From a virus, in the IMG/VR virus record IMGVR_UViG_3300021197_001082, positions 1-30,043 of that record: a stretch of 30,043 bases of DNA. One strand, given 5' to 3'. The notes beneath the pieces were generated by a model that saw nothing but the letters and a program-made list of their open reading frames with translations, ran no database searches and was not told the origin of the DNA. The stretch's first letter is position 1. Each line of letters begins with the position of its first letter. Below, piece by piece: positions 1 through 13,493 of this stretch. Position numbers and translations under genes: made by a program.

Positions 1-112
1 ACTGCATCGTGGTCATAAGTATATGTAATACCTTTTTTGTTAGTGAATGTAATGATTGCTGATTTACCGATTAATGTTTTAGAGATAACGAATCTTGATT
101 TAGTAATTTTCA
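1..112 (-). CDS. 5' part of a leftward gene, function unknown (runs off the left edge)
   Basis: Reading the minus strand from the ATG at 112-110 gives 37 complete codons with no stop before the edge. The protein begins MKITKSRFVISKTL and continues through SAIITFTNKKGITYTYDHDA, a mix of short basic and beta-prone segments. It is the only gene seen on this strand, and its start faces the rightward gene block across the 113-401 control region. In many Bacteroidetes phages early or replication genes and late or virion genes form two divergent blocks, so this may be the first gene of the opposite block; that is inference. I do not recognise the family. The start codon is preceded, on its strand, by an A/T-rich leader without a Shine-Dalgarno sequence, like the other genes here. 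Confidence 0.55.
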
Positions 113-258
113 TAATGTAATTAGTTTAATTTAGTTAATGTATTAGTTTATATTTGTTACAGTAATATTATCCAAATCGATTCGTATTTGATTTGCAAAG
201 TAAATATATGAAATAAATGAAGGCGGGGGCGGGTAAACTATTTGGCTTTTGTAGGAGA

Positions 259-281
259 GGGAGGGGAGGGGGGTAGGGGGG
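259..281 (+). promoter_or_regulatory. Potential G-quadruplex motif
   Basis: Four G-runs of 3, 4, 6 and 6 bases are separated by loops of only 1, 1 and 2 bases (GGG at 259-261, GGGG at 263-266, GGGGGG at 268-273, GGGGGG at 276-281). This fits the classic G3+N1-7 quadruplex rule with very short, stable loops. Another G-rich patch (GGCGGGGGCGGG) lies just upstream at 222-233. The rest of the window is AT-rich, so this is a sharp local composition change. The motif is on the non-template strand for the rightward genes and could affect transcription, replication start or packaging. Confidence 0.7.
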
Positions 282-316
282 CTACGCTATACCCCTATAT
301 TTACAATAACTTTTTA

Positions 317-364
317 TGTGACAATAGGCTATTAAGAAAGTAAGAGTAAGGGGCAACTGTCACA
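317..364. repeat. Inverted repeat TGTGACA / TGTCACA, possible operator
   Basis: TGTGACA at 317-323 is exactly the reverse complement of TGTCACA at 358-364, with 34 bases between. It lies 38 bases upstream of the first rightward start codon. It could bind a dimeric or looping regulator, but a 7-base arm pair can occur by chance in a region of this size. Confidence 0.25.
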
Positions 365-401
365 CTTTTAACATATTTACTATGCAAGTAATAATATAAG
401 C

Positions 402-584
402 ATGGCATACAAAATGAGTGGTCCTTTATTCTTCAGTGACCCTGATAACAAGAAAGAAGAACGTAGAGAGAATAAACAAACGAGAAGGCTTAAGCGTTTA
501 AGAAGACTTGAGGCTAAAGGTAAGACCAACACTAAAAGATACGATAGGTTGAAAGACAAAGTATATAATCCTTTCGGTAAGTAA
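402..584 (+). CDS. Small basic protein, function unknown
   Basis: A 60-residue protein, first of the rightward block. After MAYKMSGPLFFSDPDN it is dominated by Arg and Lys (for example RRLKRLRRLEAKGK) and ends NPFGK. The charge pattern suggests nucleic-acid or capsid-interior contact, but no family is recognised. Its N-terminus MA(Y/F)K(M/L) recurs in two other small proteins of this window, at 5655 and 6028. The stop codon overlaps the next start as TAATG, suggesting coupled translation. The upstream leader (ATAATATAAGC) has no Shine-Dalgarno sequence. Confidence 0.7.
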   Translation: MAYKMSGPLFFSDPDNKKEERRENKQTRRLKRLRRLEAKGKTNTKRYDRLKDKVYNPFGK

Positions 585-820
585 TGCCAAAGCAGAAGCT
601 ATCACCTAAAGCTGCTGCAGCTAAAAAGAAAAGAGATCTAGCATTTGCTAAGACCTTTGCTCGTAAACGCAAGAAAGCAGAGAACCAAAGATTAAGAAGA
701 GCTGCCATTAAGTCAGGTAGAAATATAAAAGGTAAAGACTACGATCATAAAGATGGTAAGTTTAAATCCGTTAAGGCTAATCGTGGTAACGATGGCAAAG
801 GAACTAAAAAAGAAAGATAA
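584..820 (+). CDS. Small lysine-rich protein, function unknown
   Basis: A 78-residue protein starting at the TAATG junction with the gene before. It is extremely basic throughout (stretches such as AAAAKKKRD, ARKRKKAENQRLRR, KGTKKER) and should carry a strong positive charge and be partly disordered. Such proteins in phages can be DNA-condensing or minor head proteins, but nothing here decides between these. The next gene begins only two bases after its stop, so it is part of the same operon. No homologous family recognised. Confidence 0.7.
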   Translation: MPKQKLSPKAAAAKKKRDLAFAKTFARKRKKAENQRLRRAAIKSGRNIKGKDYDHKDGKFKSVKANRGNDGKGTKKER

Positions 821-2484: not shown

Positions 2485-4050
2485 ATGGAATACAATTTAC
2501 CAAGTGAAATTGTCAAAGACCTAAACTTTGGCGATGATGCTAAAACAAAAGTAATGAAAGGCGTAGAAAAGCTTGCTAGAGCTGTTGCTTCTACGCTAGG
2601 AGCCTCTGGAAAATGCGTAATTTACGAAGACGCCAGAGGAATGCCTGTTATAACTAAAGACGGAGTCACCGTTGCACAATCAGTAGTACTATATGATCCA
2701 GTAGAAAACCTAGGAGCAACTCTTATTAAAGAAGCTGCTAGTAAAACTGTAAACGAAGCTGGAGACGGAACAACTACAGCCACGGTGTTGGCTTCGGCTT
2801 TACTAGGTCACATATACAATCGAATGGACAAAGCTACTATTAGAGATATAAAACTAGGGTTAGACTCTGGTTTAGATAAAATACTAAAGTATCTTGAATC
2901 TATAACTATAGAAGTTAGTGATAAGACACTAGAACACGTGGCGGCTATATCATGTAATAACGATAATGAGCTTGGGGAGATAATTGCTGAGGCTTACCAA
3001 AAAGTAGGTAAAGACGGCGTTGTTTTAATGGAGGGCTCTGGAACAGAAGAAACTTACGTGGAGCTAGTTGATGGCGTTCAAGTTGACTGTGGGCTTACAT
3101 CTCCACACTTTGTGACTAATACTGAAAAGCAAAAAGCAGAGCTAGAATCACCACTTGTATTAATATGCATGTCTGAAATACCTAATGTTAGAAAAATACA
3201 AAGTATATTAGAATATGTTATAAAAAACAATAGATCACTACTTATTGTCGCGCCTGTGTCACAGCAAGTCAAGTCAGCGCTTTTAATGAATAAGGTTAAA
3301 GGTAACATAAAAATCAACATTATTGATCTACCAGGCTTTGGTCAAGGTAAAAAAGATACATGTGAAGATTTAGCCATACTAACAGGTGCTACACTTTTTA
3401 ACGAAGAGCTTGGTGATGATTTAGATGCAATGACACCTGAAGACTTAGGAGAAGTTGAATACTCTGAAACAGACGATAAACACACAGTTATAACCTTAGA
3501 TGACGTAGCTGTTGAAATAGAAGAAAGACTAGACGAAGTACATAAGAAGGTTGCTTCAGAGAAAAACGGTTTTTTTAAGAAAAAGCTAGAAGAAAGACTA
3601 GCTATGCTATCTGGCTCAGTTGGAATAATAAAAGTAGGTGCTGGATCTAAAGTAGAGTTAAAAGAAAAGAAGGACAGAGTAGAAGATGCGATACATGCTA
3701 CTAAAGCTGCTTTAAAGGAAGGTATAGTACCAGGTGGTGGTATTGCACTTCTTAATTCATCTCAAAAAATTAAACCCGATGGAGTTGGTGAAGAGTGCTT
3801 GCTGTTCGCGGCTATGGCTCCTTTCGCTACAATTATGTTAAACGCTGGATTAAACACTACAACAGTGCCAACCAAAGAAGGTACAGGAGTAAATGTTATT
3901 GACGGAAAGAAAACAGACATGATTAAAGCTGGTATCATAGATCCTGTGTTAGTAACTAAGTCGGCGTTAAAAAATGCGGTTAGCGTAGTTAAAACTATTA
4001 TATCTGCAGATTGTGTAATTTCAAACATGAGAACAGATGAAAGCAGTTAA
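2485..4050 (+). CDS. groEL: Phage-encoded chaperonin GroEL (Hsp60)
   Basis: A 521-residue group I chaperonin subunit, which forms ring complexes that fold proteins in an ATP-driven cage. The signature elements are present in order: TKDGVTVA (K58, D59), GDGTTTAT (93-100, nucleotide-binding Asp at 94), the apical region around [26 protein letters not shown] with the catalytic Asp at 401 (equivalent to D398 of E. coli), PGGG at 416-419, and GIIDP with Asp 486. E. coli GroEL has 548 residues; here the C-terminal Gly-Gly-Met tail is missing and the protein ends RTDESS. The nucleotide-contact loop reads TLGASGKCV instead of the usual TLGPKGRNV. ATPase residues look intact, so it is probably active. 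groES overlaps its end by 14 bases. Likely clients are virion proteins (inference). Confidence 0.96.
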
Positions 4051-5655: not shown

Positions 5656-6023
5656 TGGCGTTTAAACTAGGTAGCAACAAAGGCAATAAAGACTTTAAAC
5701 TTAAGATCGGTGGAACACACGAAACAATAGGTGGTTGCAGGATTGAAAGGGTTGAGCTACCAGAAGGTGTCATGGGTGAAGCTCATAAAGAAGGTGTGAT
5801 ATATATAAGTAACGCTATCGATCCTGAAAGCGAGCAATACAGAAGAGTACTTCAGCACGAGATGAAACACATGACTCACATGAAGCTTGGTAGAGTAGAT
5901 TATGACGACGATTATGTTTATTGGGACGGAGATAAGCACGAGAGAAAAGACGGTTATATTAACTACGAAGGTAAGATGTATCCAGAAGGAGACGTAGAAT
6001 TACCTTGGGAATTTGAAGACTAA
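5655..6023 (+). CDS. Small HExxH metallopeptidase-like protein
   Basis: A 122-residue protein with HEMKH at residues 68-72, matching the HExxH zinc-peptidase motif, within a helix-like segment RRVLQHEMKHMTHMKLG. A further His at 75 would give HExxHxxH; the third zinc ligand cannot be fixed by eye. Upstream strands (GVIYISNA before the helix) fit a minimal zincin layout of strand then catalytic helix. The N-terminus MAFKLGSNKG matches the MA(F/Y)K motif of two other small genes here. It lies 289 bases before a holin-like gene, so it could act in lysis, virion maturation or host-protein cleavage; none is shown. It starts at a TAATG junction. Confidence 0.6.
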   Translation: MAFKLGSNKGNKDFKLKIGGTHETIGGCRIERVELPEGVMGEAHKEGVIYISNAIDPESEQYRRVLQHEMKHMTHMKLGRVDYDDDYVYWDGDKHERKDGYINYEGKMYPEGDVELPWEFED

Positions 6024-6027
6024 AACT

Positions 6028-6315
6028 ATGGCATTTAAAATGAACAGACCGGAGAACGATGCAGTTGCTCCAGCATTAAAGAAAAACGGCGGCTATCACA
6101 AGGGTCAAGTCAACGACGCTGAGAAAGAAGAGATGAATGATAACATCGCTATGGGTAAAGGTCCAGCTAAACCTAAAGTCACGACTAGCGCTAGACCTAA
6201 GCCTAATAAAGAGTCAAATGATCCAACTTTTGAATATGGCTACGAAGAGTCTCCTAAAATAATGAAACTTAGAAGAGAAGGCTTAATACCAAATTCTCAA
6301 AATTTTAAAAAATGA
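6028..6315 (+). CDS. Small polar protein with MAFKM N-terminus, function unknown
   Basis: I choose the ATG at 6028, four bases after the previous stop, over an in-frame TTG at 6013 that would overlap the previous gene. The 95-residue product begins MAFKMNRPENDAVAPALKK, echoing MAYKMSGP of the gene at 402. It is hydrophilic, with Pro/Lys-rich KGPAKPKVTTSARPKPNK in the middle and YGYEESPKIMKLRREG near the end, and is probably largely disordered. It overlaps the next gene by four bases (ATGA). No family recognised. Confidence 0.65.
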   Translation: MAFKMNRPENDAVAPALKKNGGYHKGQVNDAEKEEMNDNIAMGKGPAKPKVTTSARPKPNKESNDPTFEYGYEESPKIMKLRREGLIPNSQNFKK

Positions 6316-6734
6316 TAAGTAATTTAGTAGGGGGTTTATTCGGCAAAGTCTTAGATAACGCAGAAGGTATACTTGATAAAGTAATTACAACTGACAAAGA
6401 GAGAGATGAAGCTAAGCTAGCGTTAAAATCAATAATGCTTGAAGCAGAACGTGAAGCTTTCGCAAAAGAGGTTGAAGATCGCAAATCTGCAAGAGATATG
6501 TATAAGGACGATGCTATTATTCAAAAGGTTTTAGCAACGTTATTTACTGTAGCATACTTTGGTATTACATTTGTAATGTTTAATTACTTTGTTACAAAGT
6601 CAATAGACTTAGGTGAATTTGAAATAAGCTTTATATCGACAATATTTGGTGCTATGAGTGCTAAAGTCAATACAATAATAGACTTCTTCTTCGGTGGAAG
6701 CTCAAAGAAAAACGAACAAATAAAAGAAAAATAA
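6312..6734 (+). CDS. Holin-like membrane protein
   Basis: A 140-residue protein with a hydrophobic N-terminal segment, a charged helical stretch (residues 27-66, rich in Glu, Lys and Arg), then two hydrophobic segments at about 72-95 (VLATLFTVAYFGITFVMF) and 103-128, and a C-terminal IIDFFFGGSSKKNEQ tail. The charged coil before the membrane helices and the FFFG(G)SS-Lys ending match the phage/gene-transfer-agent three-TM holin family (the Holin_3TM type) as I remember it. It would form inner-membrane lesions that time lysis. No recognised endolysin lies beside it; the HExxH protein two genes upstream is a possible partner by position only. Confidence 0.72.
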   Translation: MISNLVGGLFGKVLDNAEGILDKVITTDKERDEAKLALKSIMLEAEREAFAKEVEDRKSARDMYKDDAIIQKVLATLFTVAYFGITFVMFNYFVTKSIDLGEFEISFISTIFGAMSAKVNTIIDFFFGGSSKKNEQIKEK

Positions 6735-8878: not shown

Positions 8879-11091
8879 TGTACGAACAAACTTTATTCAA
8901 AATAATAGAACCCGTAAAAAAGACTACTATAAGTAGACTTAACAAGGGTAAGAAGTGGAGCCGAGGCTATAACAAAGAACATGATATAGTAGTCATTGGT
9001 GACACGGGTCAAATAGGTGAAATCTACGAAATACAAGGGTTAAAAATAGCCTTACCCAAAGCACCTAAAGATGTCTACTCAAACGACAATAAAAAGTGGG
9101 CTCAACTCGCTAAGCCTGATATACTAAAAAAGATAAAAACTATATTTGACTGGAAAGCTTATCCAGAAGAGCAAAAAGATCAGTGGCACGACTATATAGA
9201 TGAAGAGTTTAATAGACGTGACGGTGGTTTTTGGTTTAATAATAATGGTAAGCCAACTTACATAACAGGTACACACTACATGTATCTTCAATGGAGTAAG
9301 ATAGATGTTGGTGCTCCAGACTTTCGCGAGGCTAATAGGTTGTTTTTCATATTTTGGGAAGCATGCAAAGTAGATACGAGATGTTACGGTATGTGCTATT
9401 TAAAAAATAGACGATCTGGTTTCTCCTTTATGAGCTCTGCGGAGACGGTTAACTTAGCTACTATTTCAAGTGACTCTAGATATGGAATACTATCGAAAAG
9501 TGGGGCTGATGCTAAGAAGATGTTTACAGACAAGGTTGTACCTATATCTATTAACTATCCTTTCTTCTTCAAACCAATACAAGATGGTATGGACAGACCA
9601 AAGTCTGAGCTAGCATATCGTGTACCAGCGAGTAAGTTTACTCGTAAAAAAATAGACACAAACGAAAAGCTAGAAGAGATAAAAGGTTTAGATACTACGA
9701 TTGACTGGAAGAACACAGGGGATAACAGTTATGATGGTGAAAAGCTTTCACTACTAGTACACGATGAGAGTGGTAAATGGGAACGACCAGATAACATACT
9801 CAACAATTGGCGAGTTACAAAAACTTGCCTTAGACTAGGTAGCAGAATTATTGGGAAATGCATGATGGGAAGTACATCAAACGCTTTGGACAAGGGTGGT
9901 GATAATTTTAAAAAACTATACAATGATTCAGATGTTACAAAGCGAAATAGAAATGGACAAACAAAGTCTGGTTTATATTCTTTGTTTATCCCAATGGAGT
10001 GGAACTTTGAAGGATTTATTGACAAGTACGGACAACCAGTTTTTAATAGTCCAGATAATGATGTTCACGGACCAGACGGTGAATTAATTGACATAGGTGT
10101 TGTTGATCATTGGCAAAACGAAGTTGATGGCTTAAAAGACGATCAAGACGGTTTAAATGAATTTTATCGTCAGTTTCCTAGAACTACGGAGCATGCGTTT
10201 AGAGATGAAACAAAAAACAGTATATTTAACTTAGTTAAGATATACGAGCAGATAGATTACAACGAAGGAATAAGTAGCTCAGCGGTACTTACAACTGGAA
10301 ACTTTCAATGGTTAAATGGAGTAAAGGATACTATAGTAACTTTTAATCCTAATCCCAACGGAAGGTTTAAAATAAGTTGGGCACCTAATGCTGAGTTGCA
10401 AAATAGAGTAATATTAAAAAACGGAATAAAATATCCAGGTAATGAACACATGGGCGCTTTTGGTTGCGATAGTTATGATATATCTGGTACTGTCGATGGT
10501 AGAGGATCCAACGGATCTCTTCATGGATTAACTAAATTTAGCATGGAAGATTCTCCAGCTAACACGTTTTTTTTAGAATACATTGCTAGACCACAAACCG
10601 CTGAAATGTTTTTTGAAGATATACTAATGGCATGCGTTTTTTATGGTATGCCTATATTAGCAGAGAATAACAAACCAAGGCTTTTATATTACTTTAGAAG
10701 AAGAGGGTATAGAGGTTTTAGCATGAACAGACCAGACAAAGCTTGGAATAAGCTTAGCGTTACTGAGAAGGAGATTGGTGGTATACCAAACTCTAGCGAA
10801 GACATTAAGCAAGCACACGCTGCGGCGATAGAGATGTACATAAACGAACACGTTGGAGAATTAGGAGACGGATATGGTGATATGTATTTTAATGAAACGC
10901 TAAACGACTGGGCTAAGTTTGATATAAACAAAAGAACCAAACATGATGCCTCAATAAGTTCTGGGCTAGCTATTATGGCTTGCAACAGACACTTATATAG
11001 ACCAAATAAAGAAAAGAAAAGAGAACCACTTAATATTAGTGTTTCAAAGTATTCTAACGACGGATATACTTCAAAAATAATTAAAAACTAA
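8878..11091 (+). CDS. terL: Terminase large subunit (packaging ATPase/nuclease)
   Basis: A 737-residue motor protein that drives DNA into the head with an N-terminal ATPase and cuts it with a C-terminal RNase H-like nuclease. A Walker A-like loop is KNRRSGFS at 176-183, unusual in lacking the normal lysine before Ser. Walker B is LSLLVHDE (290-297, D296/E297), followed by a GSTSNA coupling-type motif at 331-336. EFYRQFPRTTEHAFRDE (428-444) marks the end of the ATPase region. Candidate nuclease acids are D531 (AFGCDSYD), E596 (ILAEN) and D690 (KHDASISSG). The length and the RR-GFS loop resemble crAss-like phage terminases as I recall them. It is followed three bases later by the portal gene. 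Confidence 0.9.
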   Translation: MYEQTLFKIIEPVKKTTISRLNKGKKWSRGYNKEHDIVVIGDTGQIGEIYEIQGLKIALPKAPKDVYSNDNKKWAQLAKPDILKKIKTIFDWKAYPEEQKDQWHDYIDEEFNRRDGGFWFNNNGKPTYITGTHYMYLQWSKIDVGAPDFREANRLFFIFWEACKVDTRCYGMCYLKNRRSGFSFMSSAETVNLATISSDSRYGILSKSGADAKKMFTDKVVPISINYPFFFKPIQDGMDRPKSELAYRVPASKFTRKKIDTNEKLEEIKGLDTTIDWKNTGDNSYDGEKLSLLVHDESGKWERPDNILNNWRVTKTCLRLGSRIIGKCMMGSTSNALDKGGDNFKKLYNDSDVTKRNRNGQTKSGLYSLFIPMEWNFEGFIDKYGQPVFNSPDNDVHGPDGELIDIGVVDHWQNEVDGLKDDQDGLNEFYRQFPRTTEHAFRDETKNSIFNLVKIYEQIDYNEGISSSAVLTTGNFQWLNGVKDTIVTFNPNPNGRFKISWAPNAELQNRVILKNGIKYPGNEHMGAFGCDSYDISGTVDGRGSNGSLHGLTKFSMEDSPANTFFLEYIARPQTAEMFFEDILMACVFYGMPILAENNKPRLLYYFRRRGYRGFSMNRPDKAWNKLSVTEKEIGGIPNSSEDIKQAHAAAIEMYINEHVGELGDGYGDMYFNETLNDWAKFDINKRTKHDASISSGLAIMACNRHLYRPNKEKKREPLNISVSKYSNDGYTSKIIKN

Positions 11092-11093
11092 AT

Positions 11094-13493
11094 ATGGCTG
11101 AGTCAGTTATAAAAAATTTTCCAAGTCAGGTTGTTCCTGACGTAGAGAAGTTAAGTTACGATTACGGGTTAAAAGTAGCCCAAGCAATAGAGTCAGAGTG
11201 GTTTGACGGAAACAGAAGCAGCGGTGGTAACGTAGGATCTAGATTTAACAATGTGTCTAATGATTTTCATAGACTTAGACTGTACGCTCGAGGTGAACAG
11301 TCTGTGCAAAAGTACAAAGATGAATTATCTATAAATGGAGATTTATCTTACTTAAATCTAGACTGGAAGCCAATACCTATTATATCTAAGTTTGTTGATA
11401 TAGTCGTAAACGGTATGGCTGAAAGAAATTACGACATAAAAGTATTTTCTCAAGATCCATACGGAGTAGCAAAAAGAACTGAGTATATGGAAAGTATACT
11501 TAGGGATATGAAGTCCAAAGAGTTTAACGCTATGGCGAAAGAAAACTTTAATATGGACTTTACTGAAAACAACGCGGAAGACTTGCCTGAAACAGAGCAA
11601 GAGCTAGAACTGCACATGCAGTTAACTTACAAGCAAGCCACCGAGCTAGCAGAAGAGCAAGCTATAAACACGTTGCTTGAAGGAAATAACTATGAGTTAA
11701 TTAGAAAAAGACTTTACTATGACTTAGCGGTACTTGGTACAGCTGCTGTTAAAACTACCTTTAACACTTCAGAAGGAGTTGTGGTTGACTATGTAGATCC
11801 AGCTAGAATAGTACACTCTTACACAGAATCCCCTTACTTTGAAGACGTATACTATATAGGTGAAGTTAAAACTATACCTATAAACGAGTTGGTAAAACAG
11901 TTTCCTCATTTATCAAATGAAGACTTAGAAGAAATACAAGATCAAAGCCTAACACAAGCTCACAGATACAACACTCATAGAAGAGAAAAAGATAAAAATC
12001 AAATAGATGTTTTATACTTTAACTATAAAACTTTTATGAACGAAGTTTACAAGTTAAAAGAAACTTCTAGCGGTGGAGAAAAGGCTATAGAGAAAGATGA
12101 CGGCTTTAATCCTCCTACAGACAAGGTTGGTGGATACGCTAAACTTTCTACTCAAGTAGAGGTTTTATATGAAGGAGCTATGATACTAGGTTCTGACAAG
12201 CTACTAAACTGGGGTTTGGCCGAGAACATGATGAGGGAAAAAAGTGATTATACTAAAGTTAAGATGAACTACAGTATGGTTGCTCCACGAATGTATCAAG
12301 GTAGAATAGAGAGTATAGTAAGTCGTATTACTGGATTTGCTGATATGATTCAGTTGACGCACTTAAAGCTACAACAAGTCATGGCACGTATGGTTCCAGA
12401 CGGAGTTTATTTAGACGCTGATGGCCTAGCGGAAGTTGATCTTGGTAATGGAACAAACTATAATCCACAAGAGGCTTTAAACATGTTCTTTCAAACAGGT
12501 TCTATTATAGGTAGATCTTTTACTGCCGATGGAGATCCTAACCCAGGTAAAATACCTATTCAAGAAATATCTGGTGGAGCTGGAGCTGGTAACAAAATGC
12601 AAACGTTGATAGCTAATTACAATTATTATCTGCAAATGATAAGAGACGTAACAGGTTTAAACGAGGCTAGAGATGGTAGTACGCCCGATAGAAACGCTTT
12701 AGTTGGTGTTCAAAAGTTAGCCGCGGCTAATAGTAATACAGCTACTAGGCATATTCTGCAAGCTGGATTATTTTTAACGGCCGATGTAGCTCAACAGTTG
12801 TCACTTAGAATATCTGACATACTAGAGTATTCTCCTACAAAAGACGCTTTTATCCAACAGATAGGAACGCACAATGTTGCTACGTTAGAAGAAATGTCAG
12901 AGCTACACCTGTATGACTTTGGTATATTTATAGAGCTAGCACCAGACGAAGAAGAAAAGCAGCTATTAGAAAACAACATACAAATGGCTTTAACACAAAA
13001 GCTAATTAAACTTTCTGATGCTATTGATCTTAGAAACATACATAACGTAAAGCTAGCTAACGAGCTGTTAAAGATTAGAGAGAAGAAAAAAATGCAAGAA
13101 GAACAAGCTATGCAACAACAAAACATAGCTGCTCAGCAACAAGCACAACAACAAACAGCTCAAGCACAAGCACAGGCTGAAACTCAAAAGCAACAAGCTG
13201 TAACTCAAATGAGTATGCAGCTGGAGCAAGCTAAATCAGAGTTTAAAGCTAAAGCATTAGAGCAAGAAGCTTCTATTAAAGAAAGGCTTATGGACAAAGA
13301 GTTTGACTTAAATATGAAAATGAGGGAAATGGATAGAGAAGATGCCGAGGCATCTGAACAACGCCAAGACGCTAGATCTGAGAGAGAAGGTCAAAGAAAA
13401 GAAAGAGTAGAATCAAACAAACAAAAAGGTAAAAGATTCGAGTCATCAGGTAATGATGTATTAGGTGACGGCTTGAACATGAATAAGTTTTAA
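11094..13493 (+). CDS. Portal protein
   Basis: A 799-residue protein immediately after TerL, the usual place for the portal, the dodecameric ring through which DNA enters and leaves. The N-terminal region has DWKPIPIISKFVDIVVNG (90-107), a portal-type clip/wing sequence known from Bacteroidetes podovirus-like phages. The middle is mixed alpha/beta with RDVTGLNEARDGSTPDRNALVG, a recurrent portal helix-loop. From about residue 665 it becomes Gln/Ala-rich (QQQNIAAQQQAQQQTAQAQA) and then a Lys/Glu/Arg coiled coil to the end, likely a C-terminal barrel inside the head. No enzyme motifs. The assignment rests on context and these motifs. Confidence 0.85.
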   Translation: MAESVIKNFPSQVVPDVEKLSYDYGLKVAQAIESEWFDGNRSSGGNVGSRFNNVSNDFHRLRLYARGEQSVQKYKDELSINGDLSYLNLDWKPIPIISKFVDIVVNGMAERNYDIKVFSQDPYGVAKRTEYMESILRDMKSKEFNAMAKENFNMDFTENNAEDLPETEQELELHMQLTYKQATELAEEQAINTLLEGNNYELIRKRLYYDLAVLGTAAVKTTFNTSEGVVVDYVDPARIVHSYTESPYFEDVYYIGEVKTIPINELVKQFPHLSNEDLEEIQDQSLTQAHRYNTHRREKDKNQIDVLYFNYKTFMNEVYKLKETSSGGEKAIEKDDGFNPPTDKVGGYAKLSTQVEVLYEGAMILGSDKLLNWGLAENMMREKSDYTKVKMNYSMVAPRMYQGRIESIVSRITGFADMIQLTHLKLQQVMARMVPDGVYLDADGLAEVDLGNGTNYNPQEALNMFFQTGSIIGRSFTADGDPNPGKIPIQEISGGAGAGNKMQTLIANYNYYLQMIRDVTGLNEARDGSTPDRNALVGVQKLAAANSNTATRHILQAGLFLTADVAQQLSLRISDILEYSPTKDAFIQQIGTHNVATLEEMSELHLYDFGIFIELAPDEEEKQLLENNIQMALTQKLIKLSDAIDLRNIHNVKLANELLKIREKKKMQEEQAMQQQNIAAQQQAQQQTAQAQAQAETQKQQAVTQMSMQLEQAKSEFKAKALEQEASIKERLMDKEFDLNMKMREMDREDAEASEQRQDARSEREGQRKERVESNKQKGKRFESSGNDVLGDGLNMNKF

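Follow-up and report, generated by a model that had tools for sequence, protein, structure and literature searches.

The G-rich tract that separates two opposed gene blocks in a phage of Bacteroidetes lies within a conserved element of two sequence modules that, across a large group of marine phages, stands ahead of the virion genes. We consider this element, at positions 225-308 of the window (the entire IMG/VR record that was analyzed, 30,043 bases with ~37% G+C), to be probably the promoter of the rightward structural late block, most likely read by a sigma factor of the phage, with a G-quadruplex that could tune the promoter and would not be required for it.

Source phage and gene layout

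The window derives from a podovirus-like Bacteroidetes phage that is related to Elemovirus and more distantly to the Cellulophaga phages. Its terminase is 64% identical to that of MW202828 and 47% identical to those of Flavobacterium elemo phages, and the records matched by this terminase also include Cellulophaga phages. The beginning of the late block is present in the window and encodes GroEL, the terminase large subunit, the portal and virion proteins, with the designations "early" and "late" for the two blocks being inferred from gene content. The phage-encoded GroEL occupies positions 2485-4050 of the late block, and GroEL together with GroES is also annotated in the elemo and phi38:1 records. 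On the other side, the record stops short of the early block, including the sigma gene described below, and retains a 37-aa leftward fragment that by eye is like the leftward genes of ~72-77 aa in relatives, with no match obtained in a family search using the fragment itself. These small leftward proteins by the control region ('FTNKKG..YxYDHD', with positions 1-113 of the window listed among them) occur as paralogues, for example at 12492-12710 and 12915-13148 of G013 and at 8951-9181 and 9831-10049 of G003, and the leftward promoter motif is present close to several of them.

Relatives of the control region were collected in two ways, by using the second rightward protein as a query and, independently, by using a G-free pattern located to the right of the tract; all relatives that carry the element are uncultured contigs. 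Five of these are near-complete records of 60-70 kb, each with one rightward block of ~50 kb, one leftward block and a single point of divergence. The features of the window are collected in Table 1.

Table 1. Features in and around the divergent control region of the window
Feature	Position	Strand	Remarks
5' part (37 aa) of first leftward (early-block) gene	1..113	-	start codon at 113; runs off the contig
Leftward promoter-like motif (minusP), 44 bp	155..198	-	PWM score 46.8 versus a null maximum of 7.5 in the window
Module A, GGGGGCGGGTAAACTATTTGGCTTTT	225..250	+	TTTT at 247-250 near-invariant in relatives
Variable G-rich filler between the modules	251..275	+	composition taken over 60 relatives
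Canonical G-quadruplex motif, runs of 3, 4, 6 and 6, loops of 1, 1 and 2	259..281	+	direct reading of the sequence
Module B (M3), GGGGGGCTACGCTATACCCCTATATTTACAATA, putative late-promoter core	276..308	+	PWM score 46.4 of 48.8 possible
Putative -7/-10 box, TATATTTA	296..303	+	family form WATATTTR
Imperfect palindrome TGTGACA...TGTCACA	317..364	+	in the presumed late leader
Conserved motif TTTACTATGCAAGTAATAATAT	376..397	+	directly before the first late start codon
First rightward ORF, 60 aa (MAYKMSGPLFF...)	402..584	+
Second rightward ORF, 78 aa, phrog_6437 (unknown function)	584..820	+	query for finding relatives

A strand-asymmetric G-rich tract

The original prediction described runs of 3, 4, 6 and 6 G next to a second G-rich patch, located between two opposite gene blocks, and this description is confirmed. 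The tract consists of GGG at 259-261, A, GGGG at 263-266, A, GGGGGG at 268-273, TA and GGGGGG at 276-281, the second patch is GGGGGCGGG at 225-233, and the two lie between the leftward start at 113 and the first rightward ORF at 402. Using a definition of four runs of at least three G with loops of 1-7, a scan of both strands finds no other canonical quadruplex motif in the 30,043-base window. The original prediction also judged chance to be unlikely; when the window was shuffled 300 times with dinucleotides preserved, a canonical motif of any kind arose in only 6 of the shuffles. The three relatives nearest to the window, L177, L181 and L189, are 80-86% identical in DNA sequence over the region and keep quadruplex motifs of their own, with run patterns and spacing that differ from those of the window. 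Because these independent relatives carry their own, differently spaced G-runs, the tract is not an artefact of assembly.

Among 60 de-duplicated relatives, the DNA between the modules contains 45% G versus 9% C, while the flanks contain 16-19% G, and G exceeds C in 57 of the 60, on the + strand only. A canonical quadruplex motif precedes module B in 18 of the 60, where 2.7 would be expected from shuffling each stretch at the same composition, and the C-rich counterpart is found in none of the 60. Thus, strand-asymmetric G content is favored in this group and the quadruplex is not constant. Comparison across relatives, which the original prediction had called for, yields a divided answer in that G-runs are present in most relatives with the same gene order, but 12 of the 60 have no GGG directly before module B. 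Since these 12 lack GGG and 42 of the 60 lack a canonical quadruplex motif, the quadruplex is not essential to the family; it is a lineage-specific, optional extra in some relatives. In L088 (3200-3560) the control region has undergone a long polypurine (GA-rich) expansion that contains two canonical quadruplex motifs, which suggests that purine tracts may be subject to slippage.

These counts bear on the proposal of a regulatory switch in which the quadruplex itself chooses between the two blocks. The excess of canonical motifs over expectation, the lack of C-rich equivalents and a location over the presumed -27 to -60 region would all fit such a switch, but the relatives that lack the motif, or even a GGG, do not, and the excess clustering of runs could stem from slippage in purine tracts. 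We consequently regard a quadruplex switch as quite unlikely. What stands of the claim of block control is that the tract is within a divergent control element, apparently placed for the rightward late block; what finds no support is the quadruplex as its functional unit.

Two modules at fixed spacing

The layout of the element was obtained from iterated nhmmer searches and alignment of the 60 loci, which were anchored on the module B sequence. Judged from this alignment, the conserved unit is a pair of modules at fixed spacing around the tract, not the quadruplex. Module A has the approximate family form GGGGcccgtGGG...cGnTTTT, in which the TTTT is near-invariant, and module B has the family form GGGGGCaACaCTATACCCCTATATTTATAATA, with the alignment of relatives giving GGGGGCaACaCTaTACcCCtATATTTAtAAtA. 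From the start of module A to the ACAC of module B the distance is 60-61 bp in 24 of 26 scored loci, the others being 62 and 41 bp, and the sequence of the filler varies among relatives while this spacing stays. The match of the module B PWM at 276-308 is the only one in the window. Additionally, a G-free pattern for module B alone matched 42 viral contigs, with G-runs upstream in most of them, and the strict module B pattern had no match in bacterial or archaeal genomes. More distant loci that bear the sigma gene, such as L255, L263 and L268, keep the modules and have lost the G excess of the filler.

Searches among named phages found no DNA similarity to this region, and module matches in phi38:1, elemo and MW202828 did not rise above background. 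A loosely G-rich patch is present in phi38:1 at 33,900-33,960. An Rfam search gave no match, a tRNA search found none, and scans for terminators and for the sigma-70 consensus returned no more than chance. A GGGG..CCCC hairpin within module B was also considered as a functional feature and was rejected, as its CCCC side varies with no matching changes on the G side and there is no conserved stem. L144 (9588-9643) has about three copies of the module B core, spaced at a period of 20 bp.

Position in front of the late block

Module B scores above background once in four of the five near-complete genomes, always at the divergence point, and a pattern search located a copy there, with two mismatches, in G013, the fifth genome. 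The element thus occurs in fixed orientation upstream of the late block whichever gene comes first, with several unrelated genes occupying the first rightward position behind module B. The distance from the end of module B to the first rightward start codon is 27 nt in L177, L182 and L189 and mostly 27-140 nt elsewhere. Because only 27 nt separate the two in those three loci, an additional promoter would hardly fit between them, and a host-type TAnnTTTG is found in the 94 nt downstream of module B in none of the 60 loci.

Two other conserved sequences lie in the interval between module B and the late genes. The motif TTTACTATGTAATAATA, a few bases ahead of the start codon of the first late gene, is kept even where the first gene is a different one and is possibly a translation-start signal; to our knowledge, Bacteroidetes do not have Shine-Dalgarno sequences. 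The palindrome, of 45-48 bp in relatives (L082, L097, L103, L111, L137 and others), is dispersed in both orientations, with copies in the presumed leader of the late genes, others between genes of the leftward block and others at the beginning of a leftward HTH gene that adjoins the sigma gene. It is perhaps an operator of that HTH protein.

The region was also proposed as a replication origin, at which the G-rich non-template strand would hold an R-loop or quadruplex that primes replication or exposes DNA, comparable to mitochondrial CSB II or the R-loop origins of T4. An origin would be in keeping with G clusters that favor one strand of a divergent region, where nearly all of the fillers have more G than C, with an adjoining AT-rich box and with the GC skew, which in near-complete relatives changes sign at the divergence point. 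This change tracks gene direction exactly, and is hence not independent evidence and adds nothing further. No DnaA-type boxes and no iterons were found in the region, more distant relatives retain the modules but not the G content, and module B is at promoter distance from the first late gene. An origin at this location is therefore unlikely.

An additional suggestion, that the tract is a signal for packaging or cutting (a cos or pac site, or a physical genome end), might draw on the many shorter contigs that end within ~3 kb on the leftward side. The near-complete records of 60-70 kb, however, pass continuously through the element and have their ends elsewhere, the terminase is ~9 kb away, and the contig ends are scattered and do not fall at one point. 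The repeated leftward promoter motifs and paralogous small genes could break assemblies and may explain these shorter contigs. We view a packaging site as extremely improbable.

The leftward block and a phage-encoded sigma factor

The 44-bp motif at 155-198 is likely a leftward promoter. Each near-complete relative has four to eight copies, which share a single orientation and do not occur outside the leftward block, and the distance from this motif to module B is variable (123-334 bp), unlike the fixed spacing of modules A and B.

Leftward blocks of two near-complete relatives encode a protein of 250-253 aa with the Pfam domains Sigma70_r2 and Sigma70_r4, which are detected in 23 and 20, respectively, of 26 family members. 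This protein matches phrog_351 (RNA polymerase sigma factor), and a search of its profile against solved structures returns sigma factors only, including nearly full-length sigma-28. Its predicted structure is of moderate confidence (mean pLDDT 76.7), and the PDB matches of the model are sigma factors with low TM-scores, perhaps owing to a different placement of domains. Directly beside the sigma gene is a gene for a conserved protein of 206-211 aa with a C-terminal HTH (leftward at 3083-3703 in G003; 5819-6454 in G013), for which Pfam HTH_11 falls just under the cut-off and which is a candidate activator or repressor.

A search of viral contigs that starts from the sigma factor leads independently back to the two-module element. 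Among 40 sigma loci that extend at least 9 kb further on the side in question, 27 carry a module B that scores above a column-shuffled background, at 6-10 kb from the sigma gene and on the opposite strand, and 23 of these 27 also show both marks of module A. In several sigma-bearing genomes module B is too diverged for the pattern. In G008 module B is present with no sigma match, and the contig apparently ends where the gene would lie, as judged from the palindrome that precedes the neighboring gene in relatives. Elemo, phi38:1 and MW202828 have neither the sigma gene nor module B, and an RNA polymerase that was sought in the 3,859-aa late protein of MW202828 was not found. We infer that the sigma gene is also present in the phage of the window; the co-occurrence of sigma and module B may result through shared ancestry alone.

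Which sigma factor may read the proposed late promoter

Bacteroidetes sigma-A promoters have TAnnTTTG at -7 and TTTG at -33 (PMC7366714, PMC9723704), with the Flavobacterium consensus placing TAnnTTTG at -12 to -5 (PMC9723704). The main rival to our explanation is that host sigma-A reads the late promoter through a TATATTTR box, with a phage activator bound at module A that substitutes for the -33 contact in the manner of T4 middle promoters, and that the phage sigma is used at promoters elsewhere, such as the repeated leftward motif. The WATATTTR box is indeed near the host form. It reads TATATTTA in 29 relatives and TATATTTG in 5, such that 34 of the 60 are one or no step from TAnnTTTG and a host sigma with a phage activator could serve. 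TTTG is present in the -33 zone in 2 relatives and missing in the other 58, which fits dependence on an activator, and an HTH protein is encoded beside the sigma gene. Several features weigh against this rival. In 13 of the 60 the box is AATATTTA, in which the TA of the host box is disrupted, the near-invariant positions of module B reach well past that box, and the three named relatives that were tested lack the sigma gene and the element alike. We judge recognition by host sigma-A to be possible, though doubtful. A separate objection to our explanation is that the repeated leftward motif, and not module B, could be the target of the phage sigma.

In the explanation that we favor, recognition by the phage sigma, module B would be the promoter core, with the WATATTTR box ~10 bp upstream of the presumed start and with CaACaCTATACCCC and a G-run lying between -13 and -32. 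Module A, 60 bp upstream of the ACAC of module B, would be an upstream contact site. If the box at 296-303 sits as does the -7 box of Flavobacterium, then transcription would start near 308. On that numbering the last G-run would span roughly -32 to -27, with module A further upstream, its TTTT near -61 to -58 and its G patch near -83 to -75. The sigma factor is presumably expressed before the late promoter is used because its gene is located in the leftward block, and it would be made from the leftward promoters. Host RNA polymerase carrying this early-block sigma-70-family factor would then start rightward transcription after early expression. The length of the DNA between the modules, and not its sequence, would be under selection, and in this lineage the filler is G-rich on the non-template strand, should be able to form a quadruplex and could tune the promoter. 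A stronger version would have the non-template quadruplex, at -27 to -60 of a late promoter read by the phage sigma, hold that promoter open or block it and thereby time the switch from early to late expression; this seems very doubtful.

Comparison with known systems

The closest parallels are phages phiEco32 and 7-11, which have their own sigma factor and phage-specific late promoters before the structural block (PMC4331800). As in the present group, the functional genes of these phages form a minus block and those for structure and packaging a plus block, and there are a phage sigma and a small number of well conserved promoters (PMC4331800). Their consensus is a short sequence of the extended -10 type, TAATGTATA, that occurs in several copies (PMC4331800). 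In contrast, the phages described here have one element composed of two modules at 60-bp spacing, with a G-run near -30 and quadruplex-prone filler, and a putative dependence on sigma. Relative to Bacteroidetes sigma-A promoters, the WATATTTR box resembles TAnnTTTG, but it usually ends in A instead of G, often starts with AA and is accompanied by a large conserved upstream sequence.

Phage factors of T4 switch host RNA polymerase in time at the middle (MotA/AsiA) and late (gp55, TATAAATA) promoters. The element would share with these promoters a temporal switch of the polymerase and the combination of an upstream box with a -10 box, and it differs from them in sequence and spacing. Mitochondrial CSB II and ColE1-type sites use G-rich R-loops for priming and have clustered G-runs on the non-template strand. 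Clustered non-template G-runs are also present here, but this G tract lies upstream of the presumed start and hence would not be transcribed from it.

In our search of openly licensed papers, no late promoter or phage sigma was described for these marine Bacteroidetes phages, and no described promoter resembled a two-module element with a G-run near -30. The element provides a precise candidate promoter together with a candidate cognate sigma, by which early and late genes could be assigned from sequence in many uncultured phages. Additionally, a filler of constant length with lineage-specific G-richness constitutes a natural series of putative promoters with and without a quadruplex motif, which could be used to study quadruplex effects on bacterial promoters. 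By analogy with phiEco32 and 7-11, a phage sigma with its cognate late promoter would be a known strategy, and what appears to be new is the two-module element and its quadruplex-prone upstream region.
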